NCBI GenBank assembly: GCA_020002185.1
Contig: CM034534.1
Location: forward strand, 9,687,492-9,751,491
Length of the DNA stretch: 64,000 bases
Direction: 5' to 3'
From: Paraescarpia echinospica
Lineage: Eukaryota > Annelida > Polychaeta > Sabellida > Siboglinidae
Shown here: positions 19,142-60,140 of the stretch, in pieces
Layout: each line of letters opens with the position of its first letter
Position numbering within the stretch: the stretch's first letter is position 1
The notes under the pieces: generated by a model
The model's input: the letters and a program-made list of their open reading frames with translations, nothing else
The model's database searches: none
What the model was told of the DNA's origin: nothing
Translations under genes and position numbers: made by a program

Positions 19142-19285
19142 ATGCGATACAGTTACTTACTTTGGATGACCGTTGTCGTTGCTGGGTTGCTTGTCAGCAC
19201 TTCGGAGCAGTACCACTACGTTGTGGATAGTGATAACGGTGTGTTGAGACGATTTGATGGCATTGGAGCTATCAGTGGGGGTGGG
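19142..19285 (+). CDS. GALC: GALC exon 1 (start, signal peptide)
   Basis: 48 codons. The ATG at 19142 is chosen because a hydrophobic signal peptide follows ([20 protein letters not shown]), although the frame is open upstream to 19001. Ends SGGG|GTAAGT, phase 0. Confidence 0.9.
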
Positions 19286-22200
19286 GTAAGTGAATTCACA
19301 ATGACAATGGCAATGCCAACTGCTAGTGCTAGGCCTAGCCCTAGCCTAGGCCTAGCCCAGCCTAGGCTAGCCGCTAGGGCCATAGTAATAGGGGGTCCAG
19401 GAGGCAATTCGTACCCTGGTCATCTCGTACCACAGGTCGGTCGTACCCAATGTGTTTGTTGTTTATAGTTTTCTACCAGTACCGTATGTGGTGATTGTGT
19501 AGTGAATTGAAAGTAATCTGGGGCACTTCCGAAGTTCTGTAGAATCCGGACCCACCTCGATTTCGCCGTTATAACTTGAGTTATGCCTAACTTTGATACC
19601 TCAGGATTCTACACAAGTGCCGTAATCTGAAATGGCTTAAATTAAAGTATGTGCCTACGCATATAGCACACCTACAGCGGGCCGAGAGCGGGCCAAGAAC
19701 GGCAAAGTCATTGGTCCGCTGTCGGCATTCACCTGCAGGCCTAGCCCTAGGGATTTTTGTCCAGCGGCTCGCCTTCGGGCCGAAGGCAGCTCATAGTCAG
19801 ACAACAATACTGTGCCAATGGTTAGCCGCTCATATGCCGACTGTGCCTAATTTTGCTATATGTGTGTTTGTTCAAGTAATAAGATCAAATTATACACATA
19901 CACTAAACAAATTATGTGTATTGGTATTATAACTTGAACATTTCAATAGTAATCATCATGCATTGTCACCTAATGTTAAAATGAACATTACTTGATACAT
20001 GGTCATCAATTTATTGGGATTAACTGGAATTTGGAAGTTCAAAACAATAAAATAATATCGTAATATAATATTTTGGAACATAACAAATTTATGTAAACTG
20101 CTTCAAAATGAGAATAGGTTTCAAGATAAAATCATTTTACTTTTTTACTTTTATAAAATAATTCCCGGTTTCCCATCAGCACAAGAATTTTAAAATAGGT
20201 TCACAAAACTTTATTTTGAAATAAATGCGCAAAAAGAGAAAACTACATTTCACACCAAACCAAAGGAATGTGCCTACTTGTAAGAAATACATTCAGTAGA
20301 CATCTTAAGACTTTTTAAGTTGTTAATTGTTATCAATGAATTGCATTGATAATTGTTAGTACCATCATTAGGATTAACATAGACACATTTACCATAAATC
20401 ACACCCCTCATTTACATTTTAATAAAGTTCTGATGAGAAACCTGTAACTATTTTATATAGCCCTAAAGTAAAGTGACACAAATGGCAGAAAATGTGTGGG
20501 CCATAAACTGACAGAAGGTGCCTAGTGTAAGCACTTCATCTATCACACATTTACCCTGTCACACTAACAAACGGGGTCAGCACACTGTTGGTTTTCCCAT
20601 AGGCGACCATGTTAACGTTTTGTCTGATTATAAGAAAACGTGACCTATAAAATGTCTTAAACTTCTCACCTGCTGTTGTCATTATCTCATTGACGTGCTG
20701 ATAGATTTTAACAAAAATTGCATACTTCCAGCTCTCGTAAAATGCATGTATGTGTGACACCCGTCAATATTTACAAATGCCGGCAAGAATTACTCCGCAA
20801 ACAGGTCACACAGGCAAATTGCTGCCAAATATCCTTCCGCTTATTGAAATCATCTAGAAATCCACCATTTTACAGTCAACACCTTCTACAATCACACATG
20901 AAAATCTCCCTACTCAAATGCACTCATGTCACAGCATGTGAATTTTGTAAAAAATCATTTCTAAAAAATACACTGCATTTTTCTTCGTGTGCAACGGACA
21001 GGAAATCTAACTAGAACATGACCCCAAACAGGAACACGCAGCACAGGGACAGCATTTGTTGTTGATGAGACACATTCATCTTCATCATATCATCGTCATC
21101 CATAGCCTATAGGGAGGCCTCAATCATGACATCAGGTTATTCTGCCGCATATTCTATTTAATGTTTTACGCATAAGTAATAAGTTTCCACAGAATCAAAT
21201 GTGTGTTTATAAAGTCATGCCAAAATTAATGTATTAGAATAATCTAGAAATATACAACGATTTACAACAGAATGTCTAAAAGCGTACCTTTTTCCCGGAG
21301 CTCTGCTTTTACTGTTTCCTCTAACTGTTAGTCTGTTCAAAAATGGCAGTACAGCATAGTGTCAAATGTCACTACCCCAGTGCTCCAGCCGAGGGAGGCG
21401 CGATTGCTAATAAATGACTAACCGACACTGTCACTGGGTCAACAGTGGCTGGAGAGTGGCTGGGAAGTGGCTGTCGTATGCCTCTCAGAACCACCCTCGG
21501 ACCGAGGGTGGCGTGTTGGCTGGGGAGATCAACATCGCTTAATAGCGACTCGATGGCTCTCACTCTTACCATTTCTGGTATATAATAAACAATATTTAGT
21601 ACAGTTGTTGGTTTGTTGCATCTCATTCAGTATAAACTTTAACATGGCGCAGTCGGCAAAAGGCCACAAGCTCGAACTAAGACTATAAAAGGTTGGTTTG
21701 TCTGTTTGTCTATGAACGTTCGTGGCAAAATGGAGAGAAAATCTAGCCACAAGTAAACACGGTGCTACGGAACTTTCGAAAGATCCGCAAGAGCACGCAG
21801 CAAACATTGACATTAACCAAAGTCTGCGCTGTGGTGACACAACCGCACCAGAATGCATGCCACGTTCCTGTCTAAGCAAGAAGAACGCGACTATAAATGT
21901 GAACAGCGAGTTACAGGAACGGGAGCGAGCACGCGATGAAAGACGTGAATTGTCGGTGCGTCTCCTCTGCGAGACCCACGACAGATGCACCCATAATTCA
22001 CCAGCACGCACACACAGCAACGGTGCCAATGATTAGTCTAGTGGTCCAGATACTCAACATACAGACACCGAGATCAACGTCAGGCGAACTTCTACCGACT
22101 CACTAGCTAAAACTAGACCACTGGAGCAAATGGCAGCAGACATAACACTACGAGAACTAGCAGCATGGAAGCGATCATGGGAAGATTTCATAGATTTAGA

Positions 22201-25200
22201 ACAGCTCAACTGTCTCCCTAGTTGCGCACTAGCCTCTCTATTGAAATGCGTGCTACATGGCAATTAGCCATCGGTATAGACAATGGTGATGATATACCCG
22301 TCACAGCGATCTTAGACCGAATCCAAGAACACATTCGAGCCAAACGAAATGTTACACTGGACAGGGTAGCACTAGAAGAACGCAAACAGGAAGAAGGCGA
22401 ACCGTTTGACCACTTCTACATGGACTTACGGGAGATTGCCAACAACACAGACTTTTGCCAGCAGTGCATAGACGATCATCGTACTATCCAAATGATGTCG
22501 GGAATTCGTGACCAAGAAACAAGATGAAAGTTATTAACAATCACGCCTCCCCTTCTCTACTGACAACAGTGGGTATCTCCAGGAGTGAAGAATCAGCAAG
22601 GAATTATGAAGCTACATTGACAGAATAAGAGCAAACGTCGATTGACTGCAATGAATCAGATTCGCATACTGGACATTCTGGGAAAAAAGAAACACCGTCG
22701 CGCCCCGCGCATTAAGGTTCAACTTCATCATAATGCTGATGATAGCTTCATCACAACAGCACAGGCAACACCATATACAGGGGCTGAAGCCACTGTTGCA
22801 GGGCTTGATATCCTAAAACAAATAGAATTAGACATCGGAAATACATCTCCCCCACCTGAAGACACATCATTGTTGCAAATGGTACATCATATAAATACGT
22901 TGGCACAATAGACCTCCACATCCATGCAGCAGACAAATCTACGAAAGAGATGGTTCTTATCTGCAAAGAGCAAAAAGGACTTCTGCTGACTTGGTATGTT
23001 TGCCGAGACTTCGGAATCGATTACCCCAAACCAATTTGTGTCATAATACAGTCACAGCGACATCAACATCGCTTAACAGCGACTCGAAGGCTCGCACTAT
23101 TGTGTAATGATTTACCATTTCTGGTATATAATAAACAATGTTTAGTACAGTTGTTGCATCTCATTCAGTATAAACTTTAACAGAGGGCAGGCAGTGTACC
23201 GGAAGATGTTTGCTCTTTGTGGATTTAATTCAACATCCATCTGTTTGAAAACAGTTCTATTTCCATGTTATCGCATAACACTTTGTTTATTTTTAGGCTA
23301 CATCTAAGCTGTTGCAGAACTACCCAGAGAAACAGAGGAATGAGATTCTTGACTTTCTTTTCAAGGTACCTTTTGGAAGTATATCCATCCTCATTTAAGA
23401 CAAATAAGAGTCCTCAGTTAAATTTTTGGTTGTCTCATTTCACATCAAATTGAAACTCCTACAATATACTAACTCGTTTGTACAAACGTAGTATTTATTT
23501 TGATGATGTCTTATATACCATGGAATTATTTTGACCAGATCAGTTCAAGATGTTGTGATAAAATTGTAAAAGTAGTCTTGGTCTTTTATACATGTTGTAC
23601 CGGTAGTAGTATTTTATTAGTCTCAATCTGAGTAAACTTGCATTAAAATACAAAACATACAAATACATTATAGACAAAGTAAGCATTTAATAATGCTCTT
23701 TTGTAATTTACCCAATCTAATAATTAATGTCAATTCTTTTGATGATCTACCTGGTAAATTTTTAAATAAAAGTACATTTAGGCCCACTCTTTTTCAGTAG
23801 TTTAAAGCTTCATCACTTTGTAAACTCTTGCCAGCAACCCTGTTTTAGAGTTACGAATAATTCCTATTTTTATTTGTTTGCTAATGCCAACCCCCATTAG
23901 CAATGTCTAACATTTTGACCTTGGGTGCCTCTCTATCTTGCAGTTCAAAAAGCCAATTGGTCCATTGTTGGACCAATTCTGAAAGTCTGAGTTGCCCCAG
24001 TGCTGAAGGTTAATTGTAAATTTGTACAAAAGTAAAACATTCTATTGAATTAGTTTCTTTTAACGTATCCAGTTATTGTAATTACAATTCATATGTTGGC
24101 TTTCACCTCTTTTCAAGTGGAATCGTTCCCAGAGAAGTCGAGATGGTATTCGATTGAACACGTCTGCGAGGAAGTGAAGTGTAAAGCACTCTTCGCAGTC
24201 CTAAGAACTGGATAACATGCTCATTAAAATGCTTTTTAGTTTACTTTTAAGTTCATTTGTTAAGAATTCATTTTAAAAGGAATGAAAGCATGAAAGGTAA
24301 TTTCAATCATTGGATACGTTTAAATCAATGCATTCAATAAAAATAAACTTTCCAGAAGAATGTTCAGTAATCTGCAAAATGTTCTAATTCCTGTGAATAC
24401 TACTTACTATTATATGGAAATATCCATGATTCAGTTTGACCTTTTGTTATTGTATTATTATTGTTATACCATTTAATTTATGTTGTCATAGCGATATATT
24501 TTCTGACTTCAACAGCCTGGGTTTGGGGCAAGTCTCCAGCTACTGAAAGTGGAAATTGGAGGAGATTCACAAAGCACAGGTGAATTATGGGTAAATTATG
24601 TTTCTATTCACTGTCTCGTATGTGACCGTGACATGAATGTGACTGCCGATTTGACTTAGATTAGAATTGAATTGGAATTGAATAAAATGAATTGAATTGA
24701 AATTGATCCGTTTTTGTGAGTACGTTGAATCGAATTGAATTAGATTTGATCCTTGGTAAATACGCATGAATTGGAATTGATAAAAGTGAATTGAGCCCAG
24801 GTCTGGTTTTGGCTACTTGGTGAAAAATAGTGCATGTTCAGAAGGAGTTTCTGCAACTTTAAAGTTGTCCCTATTTGCTGACAATAATAGGCTATATTTT
24901 TCTCACAAAATACAAGTTCACAAACAGTAAAACTCGTAAATCCACTCTTGTTGATCTGTTTACAGATGGTGTCGAGTCGTCACACATGCACACAGAGGGC
25001 GACACTAACTATCACCGTGGTTACGAATGGTGGCTGATGACTGAAGCAAAGAAGGTTATTTTAAATTGCCAATATTTGACAAATGAAAGTACCCACTGCA
25101 CATGTAAGCAGAGATGGAAGAAAATAATTACACACAATTTTGAACAAATTTCAGAAAACATGGTACAATAAAAAACATTTTTTGTGCAAATTTTTTGTAT

Positions 25201-28200
25201 GGATAAAATTGAAGTTGAAAGCATTGGAAGAACAACTTTGACAACAAATGAAACCTATTTCTGATCTACTACAACATGCTCGCTCATTCTTGCAAATGAT
25301 GAAATCATTGGACAAATTGTTCAAATAATTTTTGTTCAGATAACTTGAAATTCAGCCGAAAATGTGGCTGTGTGTATCCATGTCTATATGTTAGAATGTA
25401 AGGCTATTCATAGTTTTGCATTTGTATGATGTAATATTAATTTTAATGATATAATGTGTATACATTTTTTTATTAAATTAGCACCAGATGTACTATTTAT
25501 TATAGATTTGAAGATCATCGAACTTGATTCCCAAATGGCTAAATGAATTGACATACATACCTCATTTCATGTCCTATTTCACTGACAGTAAAGAGTCAGT
25601 GCACTGTTTCATGATTATGACATAAATTCATATTTTTTCTTTTGTTATAGATCTATACAATGTAGAAACAGTTACATAAGGAATATTTGTAATTTACATG
25701 TGACAGACTCCTCCGATAGGGACCTTTTTTTTATCTTAATGTGAGTCTTCCGCCCCAGAGCAAACATTTTCTGATAAATGTATTATTTTACCGATTCTTA
25801 ATTTATTTTATTTGTTTATTTTATAGTTTAATATTTTTATTTATCGCGTATTTCAGAATTTCTGTATAATTTATATTGTTTGTAAATGTTAATAATTCAT
25901 GTTTTGCTGTTGGGATGAACATTTTAAACGTACTTCATCGTCAATTTCAGCGCAATCCCAGCATCCAGCTGTACGGCCTCCCCTGGGTGTTTCCCGGCTG
26001 GCTACATCAGGGTGGGTCCACGTGGACCCCTTATGCAAATCGCACAAAGTTAGTGGACTACATCATCAGTTGGTTGGATGGAGCCCGTAACACCCATGGG
26101 CTGGCGATAGACTACATTGGAGTACGTAAAATCAGTAATCCTTTTTTTTTCAAATTTTTCGCAGGTAATTTATCTTCTACTTTATGCTTCAAATGCTGCT
26201 GGATTGTCACAAAGAGAAATGTAAATATTTACTGGGAACTATGAAAAGAGGTAGTTTCTGGCTATGTTGGATGAGCTTGGTGTCTGCTTGTTGATAGACT
26301 GTATAAGTAACGTCACATATTTGTTATCTTAATCTTTTTCAAAATGTTCACAAATAATTTTGCCTTCTATTTTAATTATAATGTTTCGACAGGAAACTAG
26401 CGACATATACTGTGAAAATTAAGAGAGGATGTTACCGTGATGTTTTAGTAGTCTGGTTTTGGTTCAGTGCCGTACAGCTAGAGGCATGAATCTGTCAAGA
26501 TTCTCAATGTAAAGTCCACATCAACAGCAATCACTTGCCTGATATCTTTAAAAGGTAATTTTTGTGTCATTGTGGCTGTTCAATATTGAGCTAGAAGATT
26601 TTGTGTTTCATCATCCTCGTGCACCAGGGGGCGCTGGTGATTACATCAGTCTCTGTACCCTCTGATAGATCGCTTGCCGAAACTCGCAATATAACCTCGG
26701 CCAATAATCTCGCTTGCCGGAAAATTCGAGTGGTCTTCTGGGTGGTCTTTGTGGACTGTTTGGGCGGTAGACATAGTTATTTGAATACACAATACCACTC
26801 AGCGGCTCGTGAGAATGGTCGAATGGGTAATTATATTGGGATTCCTGGAATTGGGGTGCAGGTTGAACAGGTGTCTGCACTGTTCTCACAGGTGGTACGA
26901 CAAAGTCAATTATCAGTTTCATTCAGCTAACTTCCATACAATGTGTATGAGATCTGCCAGGGATAGTGTACATAGTCACACCCCTGGCTTGCGAGGATGT
27001 GTTTCATAATTACCGGCATGTATAATTTTGTTATTCTTTGAAAATAATCTGATTTTGCTGAAATGGCAAACTGAATGATTGTATGGTGAGCTGGAATGAC
27101 CCTTATCATTTCAGGTGTGGAATGAGAGACCATATGATGTCAAGTACATAACGGTTAGTGTGGAATGAGAGGCCATATGATGTCAAGTACATAACGGTTA
27201 GTGTGGAATGAGAGGCCATATGATGTCAAGTACATAATGGTTAGTGTGGAACGAGAGGCCATATGATGTCAAGTACGTAGCGTTTAGTGTGGAATGAGAG
27301 GCCATATGATGTCAAGTACATAACGGTTAGTGTGGAATGAGAGGCCATATGATGTCAAGTACATAGCGTTTAGTGTGGAATGAGAGGCCGTATGATGTCA
27401 AGTACATAACGGTTAGTGTGGAACGAGAGGCCATATGATGTCAAGTACGTAGCGTTTAGTGTGGAATGAGAGGCCATATGATGTCAAGTACATAACGGTT
27501 AGTGTGGAATGAGAGGCCATATGATGTCAAGTATGTAGCGTTTAGTGTGGAATGAGAGGCCATATGATGTCAAGTATATAACAGTTAGTGTGGAATGAGA
27601 GGCTATATGATGTCAAGTACGTAGCGTTTAGTGTGGAATGAGAGGCCATATGATATCAAGTATATAACGGTTAGTGTGGAATGAGAGGCCATATGATGTC
27701 AAGTACGTAACGTTTAGTGTGGAATGAGAGGCCATATGATGTTAAGTACATAGCGTTTAGTGTGGAATGAGAGCCCATATGATGTCAAGTATATAACGGT
27801 TAATTCTCCATACTCGCTGTGAATGCGGAAGTCAATGTTCGGCCACGTGTTACACATGCATTTGATACCTCAGTGGATTAATTCAAACATTCAACATAAT
27901 CTCAGACATAGTAACGCTACAAAAAATATTGCGTCTTAGTGCATTTTGACCCCCAAATTGTGCTCCCATTTGTGCGAGTTTGTGCCCCTGTGCCGCGTGT
28001 TCAAAACAGTGCATGTTGATATAGACCTGGCATGCTTTTATACCTCAAAAGAATGCTGACATGCAATATTTTTATAATCTGAATATGCCTCAGATGATGT
28101 AGAATGATGGATTAATGCACTGATGTATCATTTTAATGGGAAAATGTAGTTATAACAACGAAACCGAAGTGGGTCTGGAATCTCTGGATTCGACACAAAT

Positions 28201-31200
28201 GCAAAAACATTCAACTCTTGATTAAGAGTTGAATGTTCCAACAGCTACCCTATCGCAACTTGCACTTGTATATGAATATGTTCAGTAGTGGCCTGTTCCA
28301 ACAGCTACACTATCGCAACTTGCACTTGTATATGAATGTGTTCAGTAGTGGCCTGTTCCAACAGCTACACTATCGCAACTTGCACTTGTATATGAATATG
28401 TTCAGTAGTGGCCTGTTCCAACAGCTACACTATCGCAACTTGCACTTGTATATGAATGTGTTCAGTAGTGGCCTGTTCCAACAGCTACACTATCACAACT
28501 TGCACTTGTATATGAATATGTTCAGTAGTGGCCTGTTCCAACAGCTACACTATCACAACTTGCACTTGTATATGAATATGTTCAGTAGTGGCCTGTTCCA
28601 ACAGCTACACTATCGCAACTTGCACTTGTATATGAATATGTTCAGTAGTGGCCTGTTCCAACAGCTACCCTATTGCAACTTGTACTTGTATATGAATATG
28701 TTCAGTAGTGGCCTGTTCCAACAGCTACACTATCACAACTTGCACTTGTATATGAATATGTTCAGTAGTGGCCTGTTCCAACAGCTACACTATCGCAACT
28801 TGCACTTGTATATGAATATGTTCAGTAGTGGCCTGTTCCAACAGCTACCCTATCGCAACTTGCACTTGTATATGAATATGTTCAGTAGTGGCCTGTTCCA
28901 ACAGCTACACTATCGCAACTTGCACTTGTATATGAATGTGTTCAGTAGTGGCCTGTTCCAACTGTATTGCAGATGTTAAGAAAAGCATTAGACCAGCGTG
29001 ACCATGGCCATGTGAAGATAGTGGCGCCAGACTCTGCCAGTTGGACATTTCTGGACGACTTCCTAAAGGACCCTCAACTTGCCCGGGCTGTTGATGTCAT
29101 TGGGCAAGTACAGTTCTTTGGAATGTACAATATTGATTCATTGGGCAAGTACAGTTCTTTGGAAGGTACAATATTGATTCATTGGGCAAGTACAGTTCTT
29201 TGGAAGGTACAATATTGATTCATTGGGCAAGTATAGTTCTTTGGAAGGTACAATATTGATTCATTGGTTAAGATGCATAGCTCATTGGGGGGATTTATGT
29301 AAATATAATGCTGACATTCTTTGAGCTGGCATAGTATCACTTGGACAAAATATAACATATCATTGATGTTTGTCTGCAATATTTACATTTATTAACAAAT
29401 TTGAATAGGATATAATATATGATAGATTGCGTTTTTAATACTGTAGGACTAACCAGCAAAACAATGCTTTTACACAATGGTTTGTGCAACTTATTTGAAA
29501 TACTTTCATGATTTTAATAATTCAGTTTTATTGTTTGTTTAAATTTTTTATTATAATTTTTGTTCCTGCAGGATTCATTACCCAGGGGCACAGAGTCCTG
29601 CCCTCGCCCTTCATGCAGATCGCCCCCTGTGGGCTTCGGAGGACTTCAGTTGTCGCAACGACATAGCAGGGGGCGGGTGTTGGGCTAGGGTGAGTGAGAC
29701 AGGATGGGTGTTGGGCTAGGGTGGGTGAGACAGGGTGGGTGTTGGGCTAATGTTGGTGAGACAGGGTGGGTGTTGGGCTAGGGTGAATGAGACAGGGTGG
29801 GTGTTAGGCTAGGGTGAGTGAGACAGGGTGGGTGTTGGGCTAGGATGAGTGAGACAGGGTGGGTGTTGGGCTAGGATGAGTGAGACAGGGTGGGTGTTGG
29901 GCTAGGATGAGTGAGACAGGGTGGGTGTTGGGCTAATATGGGTGAGACAGGGTGGGTGTTGGGCTAGGGTGGTGAGACAGGATGGGTGTTGGGCTAGGGT
30001 GAATGAGACAGGATGGGTGTTGGGCTGGGGTGGGTGAGACAGGGTGGGTGTTGGACTAGGGTGGTGAGACAGAATGGTTGTTGGGCTAGGGTGAGTGAGG
30101 CAGGGTGGGTGAGACAGGGTGGGTGTTGGACTAGGGTTGTGAGACAGGATGGGTGTTGGACTAGGGTGAGTGAGACAGGGTGGGTGATGGGCTAGGGTGA
30201 GGGAGACAGAGTGGGTGTTGGGCTAGGGTGAGTGAGACAGGGTGGGTGTTGGGCTAGGGTGGTGAGACAGGATGGGTGTTGGGCTAGGGTGAATGAGACA
30301 GGATGGGTGTTGGGCTAGGGTGGGTGAGACAGGGTGGTTGTTGGACTAGGGTGGTGAGACAGGATGGGTGTTGGGCTAGGGTGAGTGAGACAGGGTGGGT
30401 GTTGGGCTAGGGTGAGTGAGACAGGGTGGGTGTTGGGCTAGGGTGAGTGAGACAGGGTGGATGTTGGACTAGGGTGGTGAGACAGGATGGGTGTTGGGCT
30501 AGGGTGGGTGAGACAAGGTGGGTGTTGGACTAGGGTTGTGAGACAAGATGGGTGTTGGACTAGGGTGAGTGAGACAGGGTGGGTGTTGGGCTAGGGTGAG
30601 TGAGACAGGGTGGGTGTTGGGCTAGGGTGAGTGAGACAGGGTGGGTGTTGGGCTAGGGTGAGTGAGACAGGGTGGGTGTTGGGCTAGGGTGGTGAGACAG
30701 GATGGGTGTTGGGCTAGGGTGAATGAGACAGGATGGGTGTTGGACTAGGGTGGGTGTTGGGCTAGGGTGGGTGAGACAGGGTGGGTGTTGGACTAGGGTG
30801 GTGAGACAGGATGGGTGTTGGGCTAGGGTGAGTGAGACAGGGTGGGTGTTGGGTGAGACAGGGTGGGTGTTGGACTAGGGTGGTGAGACAGGATGGGTGT
30901 TGGGCTAGGGTGAGTGAGACAGGGTGTGTGTTGGACTAGGGTGGGTGAGACAGGATGGGTATTGGACTAGGGCGGGTGAGACAGGGTGGGTGTTGGGCTA
31001 GGGTGGGTGAAACAGGGTGGGTGTTGGGCTACGGTGAGTGATACAGGGCGGTGTTTGGTACTGTAGCATGATTACTGTTAACCTTTAGTTAAGTTATTGC
31101 AAGTTGTAATCTTTGACTTTGTCTCTTATTTCTTACAGGTTTTAAACGAAGGCTTCGTTGGTGGTTTCTTCACTGGGTAAGTTTTTTGAACTGTAACATT

Positions 31201-34200
31201 CTAGAACATGTATTACAAGAGTAGAGAAATTACACCAAGATATTCAACTTTGTATTGTGACTCAAAAAATGTGATGGCTTCAAGAAACTGGTTAATCACG
31301 TGACTACACTTGATATCGGCTGTATAACTCAATGGGATCCCCACTGATCGTTAAGCTACAGTCATTTGCAAAAGTTTAAGACCAGACACAATTTTTTGAA
31401 GAAATTTGACAAAACTATGATTTTTTGGCCTTCACATAATAAAATATCAGTTTATTTCACCAAATAAACGTAGTACAAAATAATATGAAACTTTATGTCG
31501 TCCAAAAGTGTCAGTGTCTCTACTTTTCAGTATTTAGTGTGGCCACCTTTGCTGTCAGTGACCGCCTGGATGCAATATGGCATGCTACAAACCAGAGATT
31601 CACAGTACTCCTGGGTGATTTCGGAGACCCAAACGTCCTTGATAGCTTGTTTCAAGTTTTGAGTGCTTGATGGTTGTTTGTCTGCCACCTTATCCTTCAT
31701 TATAGTCCACAGGTTTTCAATGGGATTTAGATCTGTGCTGTTCCCAGGCCATTCCAGCACGGAGATTTTGTTCTTCTCGAGGAAATCAGTGGCTACCTTG
31801 GATCAGTGACAAGGAGCGCCATCTTGCATGGAAATCGTACATTTGTGGATGTCCATATGCAGTTTCAGCTTCTCCTTCAGCAACTCCACGTACCTAGGTC
31901 CACTCATAGTGGTATTAGGTGGAATAAAATACAGACCAGAAGGGCCAAACATGACATGGCACCCCAAATCATCTGACTTGGCAGGTGTTTCATTGTGGCT
32001 GCTGTATATTTCTCTAACCTACTGGCCGCCTAACGTGCCTCTTGCGAGGTATAAACTGTTGCATGGTTGATTCATCTGAGAACAACACTTTCTTCCACTG
32101 CGCAAGAGTCCAGTGGCGATGTCGTTTGGCAAAGTCCAGTCTCTTTTTTTTCATCATAGGTGTCAGGCGTGGCTTCCGGGCCGGCTTGCGGGACTTGAGC
32201 CCAAATTCCTTGCTGAGGCGTCTCGAAACAGTACTGAGACTTATTTCCATACCTTTTAAGCGTAAAGCAGCCCGAATTTTCTTGCATGAGCTCTTTAGCG
32301 AGCACACCACGATGCGTCTCATTGCGTGGTCATCCCTGAGCGTAGTTTTCCGTGGACGACCACTCCTTTTACTGTCACAAAATGTGCCGTCAGTATTGAA
32401 TTTGATGATGGCGTTTTGCACGGCTGTCTTGGAATAACGTAATTTAGTACTAATGTTTCTTTCCGTATATCCTTCTCCATGTATAGTCACTGTTTGTGCC
32501 CTTAGAATCTCTGTCAAAAACGATTTTTTTGCCCATTTCAGGGATGAAGACAAAACTGAAAAACACCTAATCGATACTGACAGCAGCAAACAAATGACCT
32601 GGAAGTACTGACTAGGCGTATTGCTTCTAGGCCCAAATAGGATGATGCAATCCAGACATTATCTGATGCAATCTGATGCCATACCATAAAGTGCTTAAAA
32701 ATCGTGCCTGGTCTTAAATTTTTGCAAATGACTATAAACAATCGATTTAATTCCATCTGCTTCTTATGGTTTGAACCTTAAAACCAATAAAAACCCTTAG
32801 CTAATGATTTAAAAAAATAAAGGTGTTACTTTCTCACAAAGGAATTATAGATTAATGCATGAAAGTTTGACAAACAAGATACAAACCGTGTCTGAGGAAA
32901 ATGTTAGCATACATACAGACATACACATATACAGTCACACATATGCTAGCTTGATAATGTTAGCATACATACAGACATACACATATGCTAGCTTGATAAT
33001 GTTAGCATACATACAGACATACACATGTACAGTCATACATGTGCTAGCTTGATAATGTTAGCATACATACAGACATACACATGTACAGTCATACATGTGC
33101 TAGCTCGATAATGTTAGCATACATACAGACATACACATGTACAGTCATACATGTGCTAGCTCGATTATGTTAGCATACATACAGACATACACATGTACAG
33201 TCATAAATGTGCTGGCCCGATAATGTTAGTATACATACAGACACACACATGTACAGTCACACATGTGCTAGCTTGATAATGTTAGCATACATACAGACAT
33301 ACACATGTACAGTCATACATGTGCTAGCTTGATAATGTTAGCATACATACAGACACACACATGTACAGTCATACATATTCTAGCTTCATAATGTTAGCAT
33401 ACATACAGACATGCACATGTACAGTCATACATGTGCTAGCTTGATAATGTTAGCATACATACAGACATACACATGTACAGTCACACATGTGCTAGCTTGA
33501 TAATGTTAGCATACATACAGACATACACATGTACAGTCATACATGTGCTAGCTCGATTATGTTAGCATACATACAGACATACAAATGTACAGCCATAAAT
33601 GTGCTGGCCCGATAATGTTAGTATACATACAGACACACATATACAGTCACACATGTGCTAGCTTGATAATGTTAGCATACATACAGACATACACATGTAC
33701 AGTCATACATATGCTAGCTCGATAATGTTAGTATACATACAGACATACACATGTACAGTCACACATGTGTTAGCTTCATAATGTTAGCATACATACAGAC
33801 ACACACATGTACAGTCATACATGTGCTAGCTTGATAATGTTAGTATACATACAGACATACACATGTACAGTCATACATATGCTAGCTTGATAATGTTAGC
33901 ATACATACAGACATACACATGTACAGTCATACATATGCTAGCTCGATAATGTTAGTATACATACAGACATACACATGTACAGTCATACATATGCTAGCTC
34001 GATAATGTTAGTATACATACAGACATACACATGTACAGTCACACATGTGTTAGCTTCATAATGTTAGCATACATACAGACACACACATGTACAGTCATAC
34101 ATATGCTAGCTCGATAATGTTAGTATACATACAGACATACACATGTACAGTCATACATATGCAGGCTGCGAAATAAGGCCGGTCCGATCGTCCCGGACGA

Positions 34201-37200
34201 GTAGTTTCAGTGATCGGACTAGTCCATGTTTAGTTGAGCAGTCCCATCGGACTAGCTGTTATTATGTAAATTAATTTACGCTATGTATACGCTAGTTGGG
34301 TGTTGTGATGGATTAAAACAAAATCAGACAGTAAGGTAGCATTTTATCACAGGCAGCTAAATATTCCGTACGACCGTCAGATCGGAAACTTGCTGAACGC
34401 AGTGAATGTAAATGGCGGCTGTTTACATCCGGTTAGCGTAGGATAGGTAGTGCCACCTAGCGACCATGAGTGGTGAGCGACATGGACAAACATACATGCG
34501 CGGGTTACTGACATCGTTACGTGCTATCCCGTCGTGATGGTAGTTGCGTTATTCCTGCATTAGGTGATTATTTTAGCAAGTTACCAAACGCCAGCAATGT
34601 TACTGATTGTTTAGTCAGCTTCGTGAAAGAAAACGCTAATGAAAAGTATAGGGCAAATGATGCAACTTAGTCCGACAATGTCGGTCCTTTGACTTTGTCG
34701 CCGTCAGGCTTCAAATTCTGCTGGAATCGCCTTGTCCACGACTCCTGTTTGCTTCCCCTGATTAAACTAGTCATTTCTTCTGATAACTTTGCAATTGGAT
34801 CTACGAAATCACATGTATTTGTTTCTATTAATGACACATTTAGTTGAAATGGGAAACGGCTTGTTTTCTTTATGAAATAAAGCCACTTTTACTATGTGCT
34901 ATAACTGTCACACATATTTGATACCACAGTATGATTGATTTTTAAGGACTAGTAAAACAATATGAGGACTAGTTGTTTCTGAGTCAGCTAGTCCGACGGA
35001 CTACCTGTCAATTAAATCCACCGTGCACCCTGCATATGCTAGCTCGATAATGTTAGTATACATACAGACATACACATGTACAGTCACACATGTGTTAGCT
35101 TCATAATGTTAGCATACATACAGACACACACATGTACAGTCATACATATGCTAGCTCGATAATGTTAGTATACATACAGACATACACATGTACAGTCATA
35201 CATATGCTAGCTCGATAATGTTAGTATACATACAGACATACACATGTACAGTCACACATGTGCTAGCTTGATAATGTTAGCAAACATACAGACATACACA
35301 TGTACAGTCATACATGTGCTAGCTTGATAATGTTAGCATACATACAGACATACACATGTACAGTCACACATGTGCTAGCTTGATAATGTTAGCATACATA
35401 CAGACACACACATGTACAGTCACACATGTGCTAGCTTGATAATGTTAGCATACATACAGACACACACATGTACAGTCATACATATGCTAGCTCGATAATG
35501 TTAGTATACATACAGACATACACATGTACAGTCACACATGTGTTAGCTTCATAATGTTAGCATACATACAGACATACACATGTACAGTCACACATGTGTT
35601 AGCTTCATAATGTTAGTATACATACAGACATACACATGTACAGTCATACATGTGCTAGCTTGATAATGTTAGCATACATACAGACACACACATGTACAGT
35701 CACACATGTGCTAGCTTGATAATGTTAGCATACATACAGACATACACATGTACAGTCACATGTGCTAGCTTGATGTTGCTTTGGCATACATACAGACACA
35801 CACATGTATAAGTCACATGTGCTAGCTTGATAATGTTAACATACACATACAGACATACACATGTACAGTCACACATGTGTTAGCTTCATAATGTTAGCAT
35901 ACATACAGACATACACATGTACAGTCACACATGTGTTAGCTTCATAATGTTAGCATACATACAGACACACACATGTACAGTCACACATGTGCTAGCTTGA
36001 TAATGTTAACATACATACAGACACACACATGTACAGTCATACATATTCTAGCTTGATAATGTTAACATACATACAGACACACACATGTACAGTCATACAT
36101 GTGTTAGCTTCATAATGTTAGTATACATACAGACATACACATGTACAGTCACACATGTGTTAGCTTCATAATGTTAGTATACATACAGACATACACATGT
36201 ACAGTCACACATGTGTTAGCTTCATAATGTTAGCATACATACAGACACACACATGTACAGTCACACATGTGCTAGCTTGATAATGTTAACATACATACAG
36301 ACACACACATGTACAGTCATACATATTCTAGCTTGATAATGTTAACATACATACAGACACACACATGTACAGTCATACATGTGCTAGCTCGATAATGTTA
36401 GTATACATACAGACATACACATGTACAGTCACACATGTGTTAGCTTCATAATGTTAGCATACATACAGACATACACATGTACAGTCACACATGTGTTAGC
36501 TTCATAATGTTAGCATACATACAGACACACACATGTACAGTCACACATGTGCTAGCTTGATAATGTTAACATACATACAGACACACACATGTACAGTCAT
36601 ACATATTCTAGCTTGATAATGTTAACATACATACAGACACACACATGTACAGTCATACATGTGCTAGCTTGATAATGTTAGCATACATACAGACACACAC
36701 ATGTACAGTCATACATATTCTAGCTTGATAATGTTAACATACATACAGACACACACATGTACAGTCATACATGTGCTAGCTTGATAATGTTAGCATACAT
36801 ACAGACACACACATGTACAGTCATACATATGCTAGCTTGATAATGTTAGCATACATACAGACATACACATGTACAGTCATACATGTGCTAGCTTGATAAT
36901 GTTAGTATACATACAGACACACACATGTACAGTCATACATATTCTAGCTTGATAATGTTAACATACATACAGACACACACATGTACAGTCATACATGTGC
37001 TAGCTTGATAATGTTAGCATACATACAGACACACACATGTACAGTCATACATATTCTAGCTTGATAATGTTAACATACATACAGACACACACATGTACAG
37101 TCATACATGTGCTAGCTTGATAATGTTAGTATACATACAGACACACACATGTACAGTCACACATGTGCTAGCTCGATAATGTTAGCATACATACAGACAT

Positions 37201-40200
37201 GCACATGTACAGTCATACATATGCTAGCTTGATAATGTTAGCATACATACAGACACACACATGTACAGTCATACATATTCTAGCTTCATAATGTTAGCAT
37301 ACATACAGACATACACATGTACAGTCATACGTATGCTAGCTTGATAATGTTAGCATACATACAGACACACACATGTACAGTCATACATATTCTAGCTTCA
37401 TAATGTTAGCATACATACAGACATACACATGTACAGTCATACGTATGCTAGCTCGATAATGTTAGCATACATACAGACATACACATGTACAGTCACACAT
37501 GTGCTAGCTTGATAATGTTAGCATACATACAGACATACACATGTACAGTCATACATGTGCTAGCTCGATAATGTTAGCATACATACAGACATGCACATGT
37601 ACAGTCACACATGTGCTAGCTCGATAATGTTAGCATACATACAGACATGCACATGTACAGTCATACATGTGCTAGCTCGATAATGTTAGCATACATACAG
37701 ACATGCACATGTACAGTCATACATGTGCTAGCTTGATAATGTTAGCATACATACAGACATACACATGTACAGTCATACATATGCTAGCTTGATAATGTTA
37801 GCATACATACAGACATACACATGTACAGTCATACATATGCTAGCTTGATAATGTTAGCATACATACAGACATACACATGTACAGTCACACATGTGCTAGC
37901 TTGATAATGTTAGCATACATACAGACACACACATGTACAGTCATACATATGCTAGCTTGATAATGTTAGCATACATACAGACATACACATGTACAGTCAC
38001 ACATGTGCTAGCTTGATAATGTTAGCATACATACAGACATACACATGTACAGTCACACATGTGCTAGCTTGATAATGTTAGCATACATACAGACATACAC
38101 ATGTACAGTCATACATATGCTAGCTTGATAATGTTAGCATACATACAGACACACACATGTACAGTCATACATATGCTAGCTCGATAATAATAACATTTCA
38201 GGTCAAAAATATAAATATCAACCATAAGAAATGTGCCATGTCTGTCTTTGTTACATATATAATTGAGCCCCTAATTCCAGGTACATTGCGTGGAACTTGG
38301 TGACCGCGTACTATGATCACCTGCCGTATTCCCGCAGTAGTCTGATGACCGCCAACCAGCCTTGGAGTGGACACTACGAGGTGACGTCACCAATATGGAT
38401 GACAGGTGAGACTCTGGCAGGACTGGGGTGAATTCAAAAATGGAAAATAGAATACACAGCTAATGTTATGAGAAATAACTTTAAAAAGTCTGGATTTGCT
38501 GAAAATGATGTCAGATATGCTGCCTAGGTTCACTTCACTGGCTGCTCAGTTTGAAGTCACATATAAGAAATGCAGCATTTTTGAGATGCAGCAAAGTAGG
38601 CACAAGACATGCACAGTTTTTATTGTAAAGTCATGTTATATAGTTATTTGAATTATAACAGTTATGTCTGTACAAACAAATGTGTTTTAAAGACCCATAA
38701 TGTTTAATTCTAATTTCACTATTACCTGTTTGAGAATATCAAACTATATATATATATATTCAGCGTTCGAAATAGCACTTGTCCGTTTGTCCGGGACAAG
38801 TGATTTTTGGTTCGGACAAGTAAAATGACTACATGGTTATCCGGTGGAACGTTTGCAACATGACAAACGTTTTTATTTTAGGAAATTCAAACGTAAATGA
38901 AGTTCGCTAGCAATCGCTTGCGATACAATTTTGTTAGCGTGTCGGCGTCTTGTCGTTCCGTCGCCAGTGTGTTGTACGTCAGTGTTCGACCGAGTTTAGT
39001 GCCTGCGTTAAGAGGATCATCCGCTGAGCGCACCGACCTAGCTCTCATACACGTAGGACAGACTCCGCATCAGCCATCGTTGATCGAGGCTGTATTTCAC
39101 AAAATCATAAATCGTTCAGTTTGGCCGACGTACAACTTGCTTCCACTCATGGATCATATTTGATGAACTTTGGAAATAGTAGACTTTGTATCGCTACCTG
39201 TTATTTGAATAATTATATAGTTTTAACCATTATTACGCCTAACCCATGCGGACTCGGCAGTCTTACAAGTCATCGAACGTTAGCCGATCCAGATCGGTGA
39301 CAATTTTCAAAACTTGTAACTGGCTCTACGGTAAATCTATGGTGGTGGTTAATAAACGGAATATTAATGACATTTCAGAAGTGTTGTTGTATCTATGTAA
39401 CATTTATTTTAACCATAAATTGCGAGTTTTCGAAGCCGAATTATGCAAGACACACGGCCGGGGACGGGGTGCCAACCGCCGTTGACATGTCGGCTTCCGC
39501 CAACTACGGTGGTCTGCGCGCGGCAACAACTTTCAACGTAACTACATCATCATCATCATCATCATCGTCGTCGTTTAGAGGCGGTGTTTCCAGGCTATGC
39601 TGGGTTCGCCTTTCTTCCAATTGCCCTCTTCCACTTGACTACATCTATAAATTATATACTGGCTGGTAAATGTAATTCGGGCACAGTTAAAACTGTTTTG
39701 ATCATCATTGAAATGGTAATATAATATTTAGGAAAAGTATGCATTTTTTGCTGATGATCAATTGAATATTATGTTCCTTTGTAAAATACAGAACTTTGTT
39801 CATATTGAAGTTCATAGAGGTTGAACAAAATAATGTCAGATTCTATAGTTTATTATGATTTCTGTGGCTTTGCATTGGTCGTGTTCCTGATGGTTGAGTG
39901 GCATCTTCAATGACAAACTGATGCCAACATTTTACAGCAGTGTTATATGTTATATATATACCATATTAAACATAAACAGTTTTTGCAATATTATAACAAA
40001 TAGCAAGGAAAACAATTGTCTCATTCCTGTCATCGTAATAATTATTTGTTATAAATAATAAAGTTCATATCAGCATCACTAAAATATTGTCATGTAACGT
40101 GTCTACTTTTAATATTCGTGATGAATAATAATGATAATGGACCAGAAAAGAGTTGCAAATATGATTTTGCAATTTCAAAATTTGCATCACAAGTCACTCA

Positions 40201-43200
40201 GATGTTCATGCAACGAAACAGCAGGAACATTGTGTTGTTGTCACAAAAATAAGACTTTTTAACGTTTTTTCTGAAGCTTCGATTCCCCTTGACAACCACT
40301 CGGACAAGTTAAAATTTTGGCGGACAAGTAGATTTCAAAACTTACTTGTCCAGCGGACAAGTAAATATTCTGGCTTATTTCTATCGCTGTATATGTATAT
40401 ATGTATATTAAAGTTGAAACATTCATATTAAACAGATAACGACTAAATTATATGAAACAACATTTGGTTCAGCAAAACATATTTGGACAATCAAGATGTC
40501 ACAATTGATATGATTTATGATATGATTTTACAATAAAAACGACCAAATGTTTCACCTGTCGTATTTCAGCTCATCATACACAGTTCATGGAAATAGGGTG
40601 GCGCTACCTACCACACAATAGTGGCACAGGCCGACTGAGCGGGAATGGCACCTACATCACAGTGACAAGTCCAGACTCGCAACACCTGACCATCATCATA
40701 GAGACAGTAGTGAGTACCGTATTATCCCCTGTAGACGTGCACTGCCTAATACATGCGCACCCCTTTTATAGAAGTGAAACCATGCTACGTGTTGCCTATC
40801 TTAGAGTTGTACTTGTGTGACATGTATGCAATCTATGTGTTTGTCCACTGCTGGCAGCTTGTGCTACGCATGTCTTATGATAAATCAATAGACACGCACC
40901 CAAGCGCTTGCACTCGGGCAGTGCGTGTCTATTTGGGATATTACGGTATGTCATGGCGGATTCGTTTATACTATGCCTCTGTGTAGCATTTAGAGCATCA
41001 TGTTCTCAGTCGAGAGGTTCTGGGTTCAAATCTTGTTGCAACGATTTTGAACCTTGGGCACGTTTGTTCGCTCTAGCTCGCTCCAGTTCACTCAGCTGTA
41101 TGAGTTAGTACCTGGCTATAGACAGAGTCAGTATGTAACGAATTACCTTTATGTCGTTACTTTACTTAAGTAGAAAAATGTACTTTTCTTGAGTAACAAA
41201 GTATATTTTTTGGAAGTACTTGTACTTGTAACGAAGTACAAATAATATGTACTTTTATTAATTATATTCATAATTTCTGTATTAAATTTTGAAACTGCTC
41301 AAATGTTTTCAATGAACGGTATGTGATGCAAGTATGCTGTGTTTGCTGTCAGTTATTTTTCATTACTTCAATCTTTGAAGAATTTGTTTGGTTTACAAAT
41401 GTAAATAATCATGTGAATGTTTTGTTTTATTTGCAATGGGTGGCTTTGTCAGCCAGTTTATGTAAGTTACTTGAGAAAAATACTTTTATGTTTTCTTCCA
41501 GTATATTTGTTTATACTTTTTACTTGTACTTCAAGTACTTTTACTTGAGTAGCCACCTTTTCTCCAAGTTACTTGTACTTTTACTCAAGTACATAATAAA
41601 TAAATGAACTTCTATCAGCTCTGGTTATAGATAGTGGTGGATATTTATGTATGAATAGACTTTGTGCAGTAATTGTGGCATGGCTGAATGCTTCTCAGCG
41701 AAGTAGAGATGGTGTTTGATTGAACAGGTCTGCCAATGAGTTAAGTGTAAAGTGCACTGAGCAGTCCTTAAGTTTAGATGCCGTGCTATATAAGAACTTT
41801 CCTTTTAGTCATTGCTGTGCAATAATTGCAGTGTGGCTGAATGCTTCACATAGAAAATGACTTGGTGTTAAAATGAACAGGTCTGCCAGCAATGAGTCTA
41901 CCTACGGCTGTTTCAGAACTTCAGCAGTTCTGGGTTTTTCAGTAGCGTAATGTATTGTTACATCACTGCTGCAATACATCAGTAGCGTAATGTATTGTTA
42001 CATCACTGCTGCAATACATCAGTAGTGTAATGTATTGTTACGCCACTGCTGCAATACATCAGTAGCGTAATGTATTGTTACATCACTGCTGAAATAAATC
42101 AGTAGCGTAATGTATTGTTACACTCCTTATATTTCAGGTTTCTTCTATTTACATATGTAAAGTAAAGGTAAGTTCTTATATAGCGCAGTATCCAGTCCTC
42201 AGGACTGCTCAAAGCGCTTTACAGTTTACTCCCTGGCAGACCTGTTTAATCGAACACCATCTCGACTTCTCTGGGAAACATTCAGCCACGCTGCGATTAA
42301 TACGCGAAGACTATTCATACACCACTGTCTATAGCCAGGTACTCATTCATACAGCTGAGTGAACTGGAGCAACATATAGTGAACGAACTTGCCCAAGGTT
42401 CGACACCGCCGCACAGGATTCAAACCCGGGTTCTCTCGGTTGAGAGTCCGAATCTCTAGCCACTGCACCACGGCGCTACACTTGTGTAATACTAATAGTA
42501 ATGACTTTTCTGTAATGTGCCATAAGTGGTTTTTCAAGACACACCTGTGGTTGTAGGATCCTAGGAATGCCCCGTGTTTCTACACCATGCCTAAGTACAC
42601 AGTGGCCAAGGAACAATCGGCAACATTCCAGCTCAAAGGTCCCTTTGTAAGTCACTTCACAACTAATCAACAGTGACTCATTTCATTTGTGTACAACAAC
42701 GCAATGAAGGGTTTCACAGCAAAACATGAAAAAACACCAATTCAAGAGACATTTAATTGGGTGAAATTTCAGAATTGAATGTTCAAGAAACACTCTGTAT
42801 GTTCTGTCAGTCGCTGCGATGTTGTATTTATAAGATTTTCTAATGGCGTGTACGTTTCAATTATGCTCTGAAGACAATGCATGCAAGTGAATTTTTGCTG
42901 AAAACAAAATATGGATATATTGCATTTTCCCCTATAACCCTTCATATGTTTTATACTTGTATTTGGTTTATATATACATTTATTGGAAACGGACTTGTTG
43001 CAAATGTTTACTGAATTCATATAGATATATTTCCATAAATGTAAATTGATTCTTGGATTAACCCCACTATATAATTGTGAAGGGAAACAACAAATTGTAC
43101 TAAATTCAATAACGAACCTGAGTTCTTCCACACTTTAGATAAATGACAACACATTTCTATCATGTATTTATTGTTGGTTAATTTTTTTTCAGAAAGGGAT

Positions 43201-46200
43201 TACAGAACTCAAAGTTTGGTACTCGCATCTCCAATTTGATGGCCAAGACAGTGTTCTGTTCAAGAATTTGCCGGCGATACAGGTAAATATTAGGGGACTG
43301 TTTCAGTAAGCTCAACAAAAATCCACCATGAGACAGAATCCATTGCTAACTTTAAGGAGCTTTTTTAAAAATGCAAAAAGCTGGTGCTGTATCACCTGGG
43401 ACACTATTTCCCTAACACACTGGCGAATGTGTCCCGGTGGCGCCTCCTGGTGTTGTCAGTATACAAGATCACTGTTAAGGGGCGAAATTGATTTTTAAGA
43501 GTAAAATCTGGCTTATGAGCTTATAAGAATGTGACTGAAACAATCCCCTCATGTACAGTGGTTTTGTTATTTTAAACTACTTTTGATCTCACTAGCAACT
43601 AAGGAGCTCTTCGAAAATATATCTCTTTTCAAAAATAGATTATACATATCTTTATAGCTAAATGTGAGAGGATCTTCGAAGTGTGGGGCATGTGTGATGG
43701 TTTTTTATTTTAAGTGGCCTTTGAACCCACATTTGAAAGAGAACGTATACACCATACACAAATTTGGATTCTACTGTTTCACAAGATATTGAAAAACTTA
43801 ATTTATTAATATTTATGTCTACGTTTCTCAAAAATATCCATATAAAAAGTGTTGCTGATTATTTACCACTCAATATGCTTACAATCGAGAGAATTTGGGA
43901 TGATATCAGTCGCTGCCATTTCAAACCTTGGGCAAGTTCTTTCACTTCACATTGTCCCAGTTCACTCAGCTGTATGATTGAGTACCTGGCTGTAAAGAGT
44001 GGTGGATATTTGTGTTGTGTTTTCGCTTATACTATTAGCATAACGGAAGCAAACATTTGAGTGACATTATGAACTGTCGAACTGACATGTTTATTGCAGT
44101 CGCAGGCCACGATGCGAAGGGATCATCCCGTAATACATTTTAGTACAATGAGCGGGGAACAGTCATTGTCATAATGCAACATCCTTCCATTTTTAGAGAA
44201 AAGCTAGATTAACATTGCATAAGCACTAGTGTCAATAAAAGTCCTTGCAACAGTAGCAATTACTCAAAAATAGCAACTAATAGTGTGAATGAGTGAACTG
44301 TCCTTGTTCGGAAGTATTCACGTAAGAATAAAATTATGCGAGTAGTCTAATCTGACTAACATATTAATGTTCATAATAGTGAGTCACTGGACGAATGAAC
44401 CATACTACTCACTAACAATAAGCTGTTACTAATTTAAACATCAGCTCATGGGGAGTCAAACAAAATTAGAAATAGGCGGAATATATACAGTCTGTAGTCT
44501 TCACTTGCAGTCGTAATCTTTGAGGTAGTCCGGCGATTTCACCTGACGACCCGATCTCGATGTTACGATCTGCAGACAGACGTCTCGACGGATCGGCGTA
44601 GATGCGGCTTCGGCGACCGTTGTCGGCATCTCGATTGGCGTAACGTCTTCTGCATCCACATCTCGTTGAGGGTTGATGATGTCGTCGACGAGCAGTGCGC
44701 GGACTTGCAGCGGAGATTCAGCCGACTTCCTCAGCTGCACGTGGTTGCGCTTGTATACCCTGTCGCCTGTCTCGACCTCGTACGACCTTTCGTCTAGACA
44801 TCTGTTGACGACAGCTTTCCTCCAGACACGACTACCCTGAACGAATGGTCTCATCCGCACAGTATCTCCCTCCTCCAGAACGGGAAGATCATGGACAAAT
44901 CTGTCGTAGTGTGTCTTCTGTTTGGCTTGGTTAAGCTGCAGACGTCTCTTATCGACTTCAGTGGCTGTCGCGGAGCGCGGTTTAAGCAGTTCGCTCGTCA
45001 TCAGAAGCAACGTCCTCGTTCATCGGTTCATGAGCCGCTGGACCGGGCTGCTTCCAACACCTTGTGTGGGCGTGTTGCGAACGTCTAACAGTGCCAGAAA
45101 TTGATCAGTGTTCGTGTCTTTGTTTTTTCTCATCAGTCGCTAGGCAGATTTCACAGCGGACTCTGTCTTGCCGTTAGCCTTCTGGTTCGCTGGACTGACC
45201 AGCATGTGCTCGAAATTCCACTCGACCGAGAAGTCGTGAAACGTCAATGCTGTGAACTGAGGACCTGGATCTGAGACAACATGACAAGGAAGGTATGCCG
45301 TATCTGGCGAAGTGACCCTTCAGCTTGCGAATGACCGTTGTCGTGGTCGTGCCCTCAAGACGATCAATTTCCCAAAAATTTGAGAAGTAGTCGACTGTGA
45401 CTAGGTAAGACTTGCCTTCGAACGAGAAAATATCTGTCCCGACTTTTTGCCAGGGTCGGTCAGGGACGTCGTGCTGCATGAGTGATTCTCTTGGCTGGTC
45501 GACTTCGTATTTGCGCCAAGTCTCACATGTGGAGATGTACTCTCTGATATCGGCTGACATGCCCGGCCAGAACACGCATTCTCTTGCCCTTCGCAAACAG
45601 CCATCTATTCCGACGTGTGAGGAGTGGATCGCCTTTTTGATTTCAGATCTCAGGCTACGTGGTATCAGAGTACGTTCTCCTTTGAAGATGATACCATCTT
45701 GCATGGACATTTCATCTCTCACGTGGAAATACGGATGCAGAACTGTATACAGCTGACTTCTGTCATCAGGCCATCCTTGGAGTATGACCTTGGAGAGTTG
45801 CTGCGATACTTCATCTTGTTCTGTGGCGTTCCGTATCTGTTGTAGTCGTTCGGGGCGGATTGGAAGGAAGGACACCATGTTCACTTGTTCCAATTCTGCT
45901 TGGCTACAGCCGTCGTTTGGCAGATACGCACGGGAGAGCATGTCAGCAATGTGCATTTCTTTTCCTTTGCAGTAGATGACCTCGATGTCATATTGTTGAA
46001 CTCTCAGTAGCATTCCCTGCAGACGTCTGGGTGCCTTGGCAAGAGGCTTATTCACAATGGCCTCCAGAGGCTTGTGATCGCTGTGGACAGTTGTGTGTCT
46101 GCCAAAGGTGTATTGGTGGAACTTCTGCAGTGAAAAAACGATTGCCAGCATCTCCTTCTCAATTTGCGCATAGCGAGTCTCGACGTCCGTAAGCACGCGA

Positions 46201-59264: not shown

Positions 59265-60140
59265 GTTAGGGGAAGGTGGAATAAAACGGCCCCCCGTCAA
59301 AGGTGGCCACCCCCTTATATCTCCGCTATAAGGCCGTTGCGTTTTGCCGATCAGACAACGTTTCCTACCTTAACCTAGGTCACAGGGCATATGGCGTTCC
59401 ACACGCGACGGTGTTGAGTTGCCGGAGAATTAAAAAAAATACTCTGCGTTGATGTAAGGTGAGTGTCGTGACTTCCTAAGCATTTATGAAGAATATCAAG
59501 CAGATATTGCTTATACCTTGGTATACGATTGATAACTAATCCATGATGGACAGTGTTAACTTACACAATTTTAATATGCATATGCACACTTGTCTATGCC
59601 GGGTCATTCAGTACGCTGTCAGTGTGGGGAAAAACGGCCCCCTCAACGGTGGGGTAAAAATATATGGCACGTACCATATATATTATTCTACTTAATTACT
59701 ATTTTTTTTACAATATGCCACGGAAATACATCCGAAAGTTGACCCAAAATGCCTGGGATATAAACGCGATGGCTTTGGCCACTGCGGCCAAGGAATGGGG
59801 AGAAATGGGATTCAAAAAAGCAGCTAAAGAGTTTGGCATACCTAGAACGACTCTGAAGAGAAGATATAAAGATGTCAATAAGTATGCTAAAGGAACTGCC
59901 AAAACACTCGGTCGTCTTATGGTAAGCAATGTTGGTATTTTCGCGTCAATCTCACAGCGACCTACTGCACAGCAACACAATGACATAAACGTCGTGTTTT
60001 TTTCAGACGACATTCTCTCCAGCGTAGAGCGTGACCTGGTGAAGTACAAGGTGGAGATGGGAGAGATGATGTTCGGGGCCGGAATTACAGAAGTTCGAAA
60101 ACTAGCGTTTCAACTAGTTGTGGCAATGGGTTGATGCACC
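59265..60140 (+). mobile_element. pogo/Tigger-like element, 5' part
   Basis: Begins near GGGGAAGGTGGAATAAAACG and contains a transposase-like ORF, then passes into a 34-bp satellite. The opposite end is not in the window. Confidence 0.65.
59715..60134 (+). pseudogene. pogo-like transposase N-terminal fragment (Psq-type HTH)
   Basis: MPRKYIRKLTQNAWDINAMA and AAKEFGIPRTTLKRRYKD form a Psq/pipsqueak-like helix-turn-helix, followed by KGTAKTLGRL and TEVRKLAFQLVVAMG, the order seen in Tigger-like proteins. The ATG at 59715 is preferred over 59664 because MPRKY is the family start. An intron-like GTAAGC...TTTCAG at 59923-60007 would break the frame if spliced. The ORF stops where the satellite starts; the DDE domain is not in view. 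Confidence 0.8.

Follow-up and report, generated by a model that had tools for sequence, protein, structure and literature searches.

Exon 6 of a galactocerebrosidase (GALC) gene is the first of 16 tandem copies of a 43-bp unit, which consists of the whole exon (39 nt) plus the four bases GTTA. We regard it as quite probable that this array is a minisatellite of the mirage type, i.e. of the kind known from exon-intron boundaries in amphioxus, that it arose by tandem duplication, that its first copy is the one spliced, and that arrays over a boundary are tolerated as long as the copy at the other splice site is intact. The window, meaning the whole stretch of 64,000 nt that was analysed, is C4:9687492-9751491 in a genome of 1,083,790,144 bases and 3111 contigs; Rfam and tRNA searches across it returned no matches.

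The GALC coding gene is complete on the forward strand of the window (19142..54408). Its 18 exons, placed with the help of the Lamellibrachia satsuma protein, add up to 2070 nt and 689 aa, with consistent splice sites and phases and a single stop, which is terminal. Identification of the gene as GALC, with the WNE glutamate in exon 6, was part of the original prediction and is borne out by homology: the joined exons match galactocerebrosidase 4ccc_A (E 4.5e-40), which we take to be the mouse enzyme. Homology over the protein, together with the WNE and SED glutamates at E183 and E259 of the model (presumably the catalytic ones), places the product in the GALC family (GH59). In a protein database search (7994 candidates scored, 2839 matches), the closest of the best 120 matches listed was L. 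satsuma galactocerebrosidase, with 72% identity across the full 507-aa query; the next named matches among these 120 were at about 50-54%. The source animal is thus most likely an annelid related to the siboglinid tubeworms; amphioxus, which the mirages had first brought to mind, is not where the protein comparison leads. Fifteen of the 17 donors are GT and two are GC, those of exon 7 (TGG/GCAAGT at 29103, the slash marking the junction) and exon 15 (GTG/GCACGT at 49681), both dictated by the reading frame. About 19 residues of exon 10 (38281-38405) are missing from the L. satsuma GALC model (P0001), perhaps through an annotation miss. On the reverse strand, the GALC introns harbour open frames of reverse transcriptase, RNase H and integrase zinc-binding type (45177-47081) and an open frame with a Tc3-type transposase domain (32017-32658).

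The exon 6 array occupies positions 27115..27802 of the forward strand (TRF: period 43, 16.0 copies, 91% matches), which agrees with the unit length and copy number first proposed. Its first base, directly after TTATCATTTCAG, is the first base of exon 6, and its last base is the final A of a GTTA. Copy 1, which is exon 6 itself (27115..27153, donor ACG/GTTAGT), is the only one to bear an acceptor. Compared unit by unit with the consensus, the copies show 0 to 4 differences each; copy 1 is off at one site and copy 16 at two, and inner copies differ no less. The donor GT is present in nine of the 16 copies and gone from seven, in the order KKKLKLKLKLKLKLLK: the alternation of kept and lost donors described earlier does exist in units 3 to 14 (13 runs, permutation p 0.026), but it does not extend throughout the array. 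Copies 1-15 run into the next unit, and the 8 of them with GT read GTTAGT; after copy 16 the sequence is ACG/GTTAAT. The distance between units is smallest for those lying four or two places apart; units 4 and 8 are identical, as are units 5 and 9. The array occurs once in the whole assembly: among 32 matches listed, the other 31 cover only the sequence just downstream, where a dispersed repeat (27821-27901) has at least 31 other genomic matches.

It had been stated that nearly all copies keep the peptide. This is true in that none contains a stop, but the first 12 residues are unaltered in only 9/16, the remaining 7/16 having substitutions. Half of the 12 distinct exon changes among the copies are synonymous; for transitions alone the figure is 6/11, against 11/39 possible ones (p 0.03), and the absence of stops is expected by chance about half the time. 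These values argue weakly for strong coding selection on the copies, and conservation of the coding capacity mainly reflects their youth.

When each donor position was considered in turn, only that of copy 1 restored the 689-aa frame; positions 2-16 (15/15) led to a stop at codon 197, which substantiates the frameshift anticipated for an extended exon 6. The same holds for the view that copies 2-16 lack an acceptor tract and are unlikely exons: each junction is a TTAG without pyrimidine tract, and a spliced copy would be of 38 nt and out of frame. The working splice of exon 6 is probably that of the copy 1 donor, judging from the sequence, and the intact frame suggests that splicing proceeds normally despite the array. 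By parsimony, the ancestral donor would be the GTTAAT now located after copy 16, and duplication, by placing the exon's own GT at +5/+6, would have improved the first donor to GTTAGT.

The next two exons of GALC are affected as well. Exon 7 (28973..29103) shares its final 13 nt and its donor with a 41-bp x 4.3 array (29091..29267), and exon 8 (29572..29689, donor AGG/GTGAGT) shares its final 19 nt and its donor with a 31-bp array (29671..31055; TRF rows 29671-30111 and 30102-31055), all on the forward strand. In both cases, the unit is made of the exon end, the donor and a short piece of intron. Every later donor position would truncate the protein, i.e. 4/4 for exon 7, the last one being without donor, and 59/59 for exon 8, 56 of them with GT (GT stands at 57 of the 60 exon 8 positions of a scan restricted to donor-like motifs). 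A 60-bp x 12 array (28234-28962) stops 10 bp before the exon 7 acceptor, and the branch-point region of that exon probably falls within its last unit. The nine arrays of the GALC span were submitted to 20,000 random placements, in a test framed after the pattern had been seen: at least three donor-spanning arrays with no acceptor-spanning one were obtained in a fraction of 0.0001, at least three left edges in coding sequence in 0.0085, and no acceptor-spanning array in 0.0014. The expected number of donor-spanning arrays, 3.0, equals the observed one. What is unusual in the GALC span is that no acceptor is included and that arrays start inside exons, not the count of donors.

Similar arrays are found beyond GALC. 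The neighbouring gene, on the other strand, is GPAT1-like (match 8e4y, E 9.3e-34). A 38-bp x 78 array (2652..5652, reverse strand) begins with the last 11 nt and the donor (ATG/GTATGT) of its exon ..ILAQHVVY(G); the 8e4y alignment crosses the junction ..LAQHVVYG/MNAQAVMSTH.., and the donor after ..HVVY(G) lies inside this 3-kb array. A later exon of the same gene, ..EWGIPDTLYK/GTCTGT, reaches with its final 29 bases and its donor into a 54-bp x 15 array situated outside the window (L011, 7309-8122); lying outside the printed PDB alignment, this exon was placed by its acceptor, frame, donor and position. A third gene has an HTH_psq domain (E 2e-08). A 34-bp x 100 array (60106..63502, forward strand) starts in the open frame of its second HTH_psq exon, with 24 nt of frame followed by GTTGATGCAC. 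That the exon ends inside the array is less sure; the homologue P0121 covers 44% of the query, namely the psq-domain part. The array itself ends at a 1000-N scaffold gap (63503-64000; L009, 95-1094), beyond which is an unrelated 57-bp x 53 array.

Exons of the same 1.08-Gb genome were also picked by Pfam family, without regard to repeats. For kinesins (PF00225, 128 matches), 50 loci were taken, i.e. the 30 best plus 20 out of the 24 that follow them in the list, the other four being duplicates or frame-broken; removal of three near-duplicates left 47 exons, some of which share a gene. For the myosin head (PF00063, 76 matches), 12 of the best 18 were retained and six near-identical ones omitted. 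As the three sets had flanks of different length (1500, 700 and 400 nt), long-range arrays were unequally detectable. Boundary-spanning arrays were found at 4 of the 59 exons (95% interval 1.9 to 16.5%), over the donor in three (L026, L029 and L063) and over the acceptor in one (L067). All four are kinesins; none of the 12 myosin exons had one. The L029 array (1700-2763) contains 16 copies, all with GTTAGT, of a unit comprising 54 nt of exon and 12 nt of intron. At 66 nt the unit is divisible by three, and reading on past the exon end meets no stop for about six units; over these, the later donors, if used, would generate in-frame 22-residue repeats. At L063 the array is a short one, with 3.9 imperfect copies of 28 bp (82%). 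L067 (reverse strand, 1-734) is a mirror image, with 46-bp units TTGTGTTGCAG/ACATGAATGAGC.. upstream of the working exon; these acceptor-spanning units carry TTGCAG/ACATGAATGAGC. On inspection, the arrays of L030, L042 and L045 proved to be intronic. The 13-bp array of L053 overlaps the end of the Pfam match and was not counted, because the match passes a stop and the array is intronic by eye. L071-L073, hand-picked for their long open frames and showing short-period repeats only, were likewise left uncounted. The oddity noted at the start, a coding exon turned into an array, is real but was too narrowly drawn, as it is not special to the catalytic exon: exons 7 and 8, two exons of the GPAT1-like gene, probably the HTH_psq exon and 4/59 kinesin and myosin exons have boundary-spanning arrays of this kind.

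In the scenario we favour, a 43-bp stretch comprising all of exon 6 and the first four intron bases would have been duplicated in tandem. Slippage or unequal exchange would then have raised the number of copies to 16, in part through blocks of two and four units, as suggested by the distance minima and the identical units. Copy 1, with the original acceptor and its own donor, would provide the normal 39-nt exon, and copies 2-16 would be intronic. In a minisatellite-rich genome, exon-end arrays would be tolerated if the copy beside the exon's other splice site is intact, since that copy still splices. The exactness of units and boundaries, the intact 18-exon model, its 72% identity to L. satsuma GALC and the truncation caused by later donor positions at exons 6, 7 and 8 speak in favour of this reading, as do the recurrence of the design in GALC exons 7 and 8, the GPAT1-like gene and kinesins, and the undisturbed splicing reported for amphioxus mirages in the available parts of the literature. 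The exon 6 array is one of many in the genome and most likely neutral or nearly so. On the other side are the lack of boundary-spanning arrays at the 12 myosin exons and the existence of intronic arrays that lie near exons but off the boundary (L030, L042 and L045). Two further features, the start of the array on the very first base of the exon and the excess of donors, are not predicted outright by a simple tolerance of random duplications. In total, and with the psq and IPDTLYK cases counted in, nine arrays span a donor and one an acceptor (p 0.02); leaving out exon 6, which was given, the numbers are 8 and 1 (p 0.04).

These two features would fit an origin directed to splice sites, in which exon ends, for instance through transcription-coupled R-loops or nicks at 5' splice sites, seed duplications at donors. 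The outcome of random placement in the GALC span for donor- and acceptor-spanning arrays points the same way, as does array coverage around the 47 kinesin exons, which per 100-nt bin amounts to 11-22% downstream of the matched stretch against 5-11% upstream of it (L021-L070). We nevertheless hold such an origin to be unlikely, as the numbers are small and partly post hoc, the unbiased kinesin and myosin sample taken alone gives 3 donor- versus 1 acceptor-spanning arrays, and selection against decoy acceptors would lead to an identical bias.

A second alternative, which seems to us still less probable, is that the repeated donors are at work, either as tandem U1-binding sites boosting a weak exon end or as decoys feeding transcript decay, and that selection keeps the arrays. 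In a post hoc comparison, 5/9 array donors have a pyrimidine at +3, as against 3/22 of the remaining donors in the two neighbouring genes (one-sided p 0.027). Moreover, exon 6 is just 39 nt long, the exon 7 donor is a GC, more than half of the exon 6 copies retain the GT and use of any later position would truncate the protein. Against this, the GT is gone from seven copies of exon 6, exon 8 has a strong donor, and the copies are young enough for donors to have been kept by descent alone. The donor excess, the coverage asymmetry and the +3 pyrimidine are hints that survivorship would explain as readily as a real preference of the arrays for (weak) donors. Finally, expansion of a single exon by mis-assembly is hardly credible: the array at 60106-63502 does run into a gap of 1000 N, behind which a different array follows, but the exon 6 array displays distinct ordered variants across its units, is complete with both flanks, is found once in an assembly of chromosome-sized contigs, and has counterparts of the same design, with different units, at other exons.

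Repeat growth is normally kept away from exon ends. If exon-end minisatellites occur in many genes of a second animal lineage, amphioxus would be no one-phylum curiosity, and a single genome would allow one to test how the spliceosome chooses among numerous identical donors, for what reason donors seem to be affected more often than acceptors, and whether introns, exons or protein repeats originate from such arrays. For annotators, it is a reminder that decoy copies can be mistaken for exons. It is conceivable, though doubtful, that splice-boundary minisatellites are spread genome-wide in this annelid lineage, where several percent of the exons and thus thousands of sites would have one, that they arose independently of amphioxus through a 5'-favouring process, and that the donor arrays influence splicing and are a source of raw material for new introns, for alternative exons and for in-frame protein repeats such as those of L029. 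Should a genome-wide donor bias or an effect of the copies on splicing be true, the interest of the system would rise.

Mirages, as presented in the accessible portions of the amphioxus papers, are minisatellite-like tandem repeats over exon-intron boundaries. They concern the globin genes BflGb6 and BflGb9 (PMC3087553), PGBD5 (PMC3902484, which also cites Adh and troponin C) and Adh3 (Canestro et al. 2002, cited in PMC3087553), and normal splicing is reported there to be undisturbed (PMC3087553, PMC3902484). The worm arrays are like them in being tandem minisatellites that span an exon-intron boundary (GALC exons 6, 7 and 8), in having the splice signal in many copies but not all (as for the GT of exon 6), and in concerning both 5' and 3' boundaries, the acceptor case of the worm being kinesin L067 only. 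Unit lengths overlap, with 10-72 bp for amphioxus Adh3, as cited, and 25-66 bp for the worm. Mirages have homogenised inner copies and distinct boundary copies; in the exon 6 array, variants are common to inner blocks two or four units apart, and copies 1 and 16 stand no further from the consensus than inner copies do. Mirages also show haplotype length differences and somatic instability; the worm array was seen in one assembly, where it occurs once. The worm differs in belonging to another phylum, common descent of the arrays being without support, in that the unit of GALC exon 6 is a complete exon from its first base, in that three consecutive exons of one gene are hit, and in that the frequency was sampled, at several percent of kinesin and myosin exons in one genome. 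The amphioxus family is one of cephalochordates with shared array descent, and the best GALC match here is the annelid L. satsuma; on sequence grounds, the worm array appears mirage-like and is not assigned to that family.

Other systems are more distant. The Rogers model, as cited in PMC3087553, lets introns arise when a tandem duplication takes in an AG/GT proto-splice site; it shares with the worm the duplication of exon sequence with splice signals, but at GALC there is no new intron, an existing one being lengthened by the array. The earthworm metallothionein introns, according to the accessible part of PMC12783039, offer an annelid case of minisatellites in introns, together with a few copies of exons that the transcript does not contain, but neither splice-site-spanning units nor a long exon array are described there. 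The Ridgeia genome paper (PMC9921365) does not mention minisatellites in the part available, and the matches listed in the openly licensed literature contain no description of boundary-spanning arrays outside amphioxus. To conclude, the kind of array is known from amphioxus, and here it occurs in several genes of an animal of another phylum.
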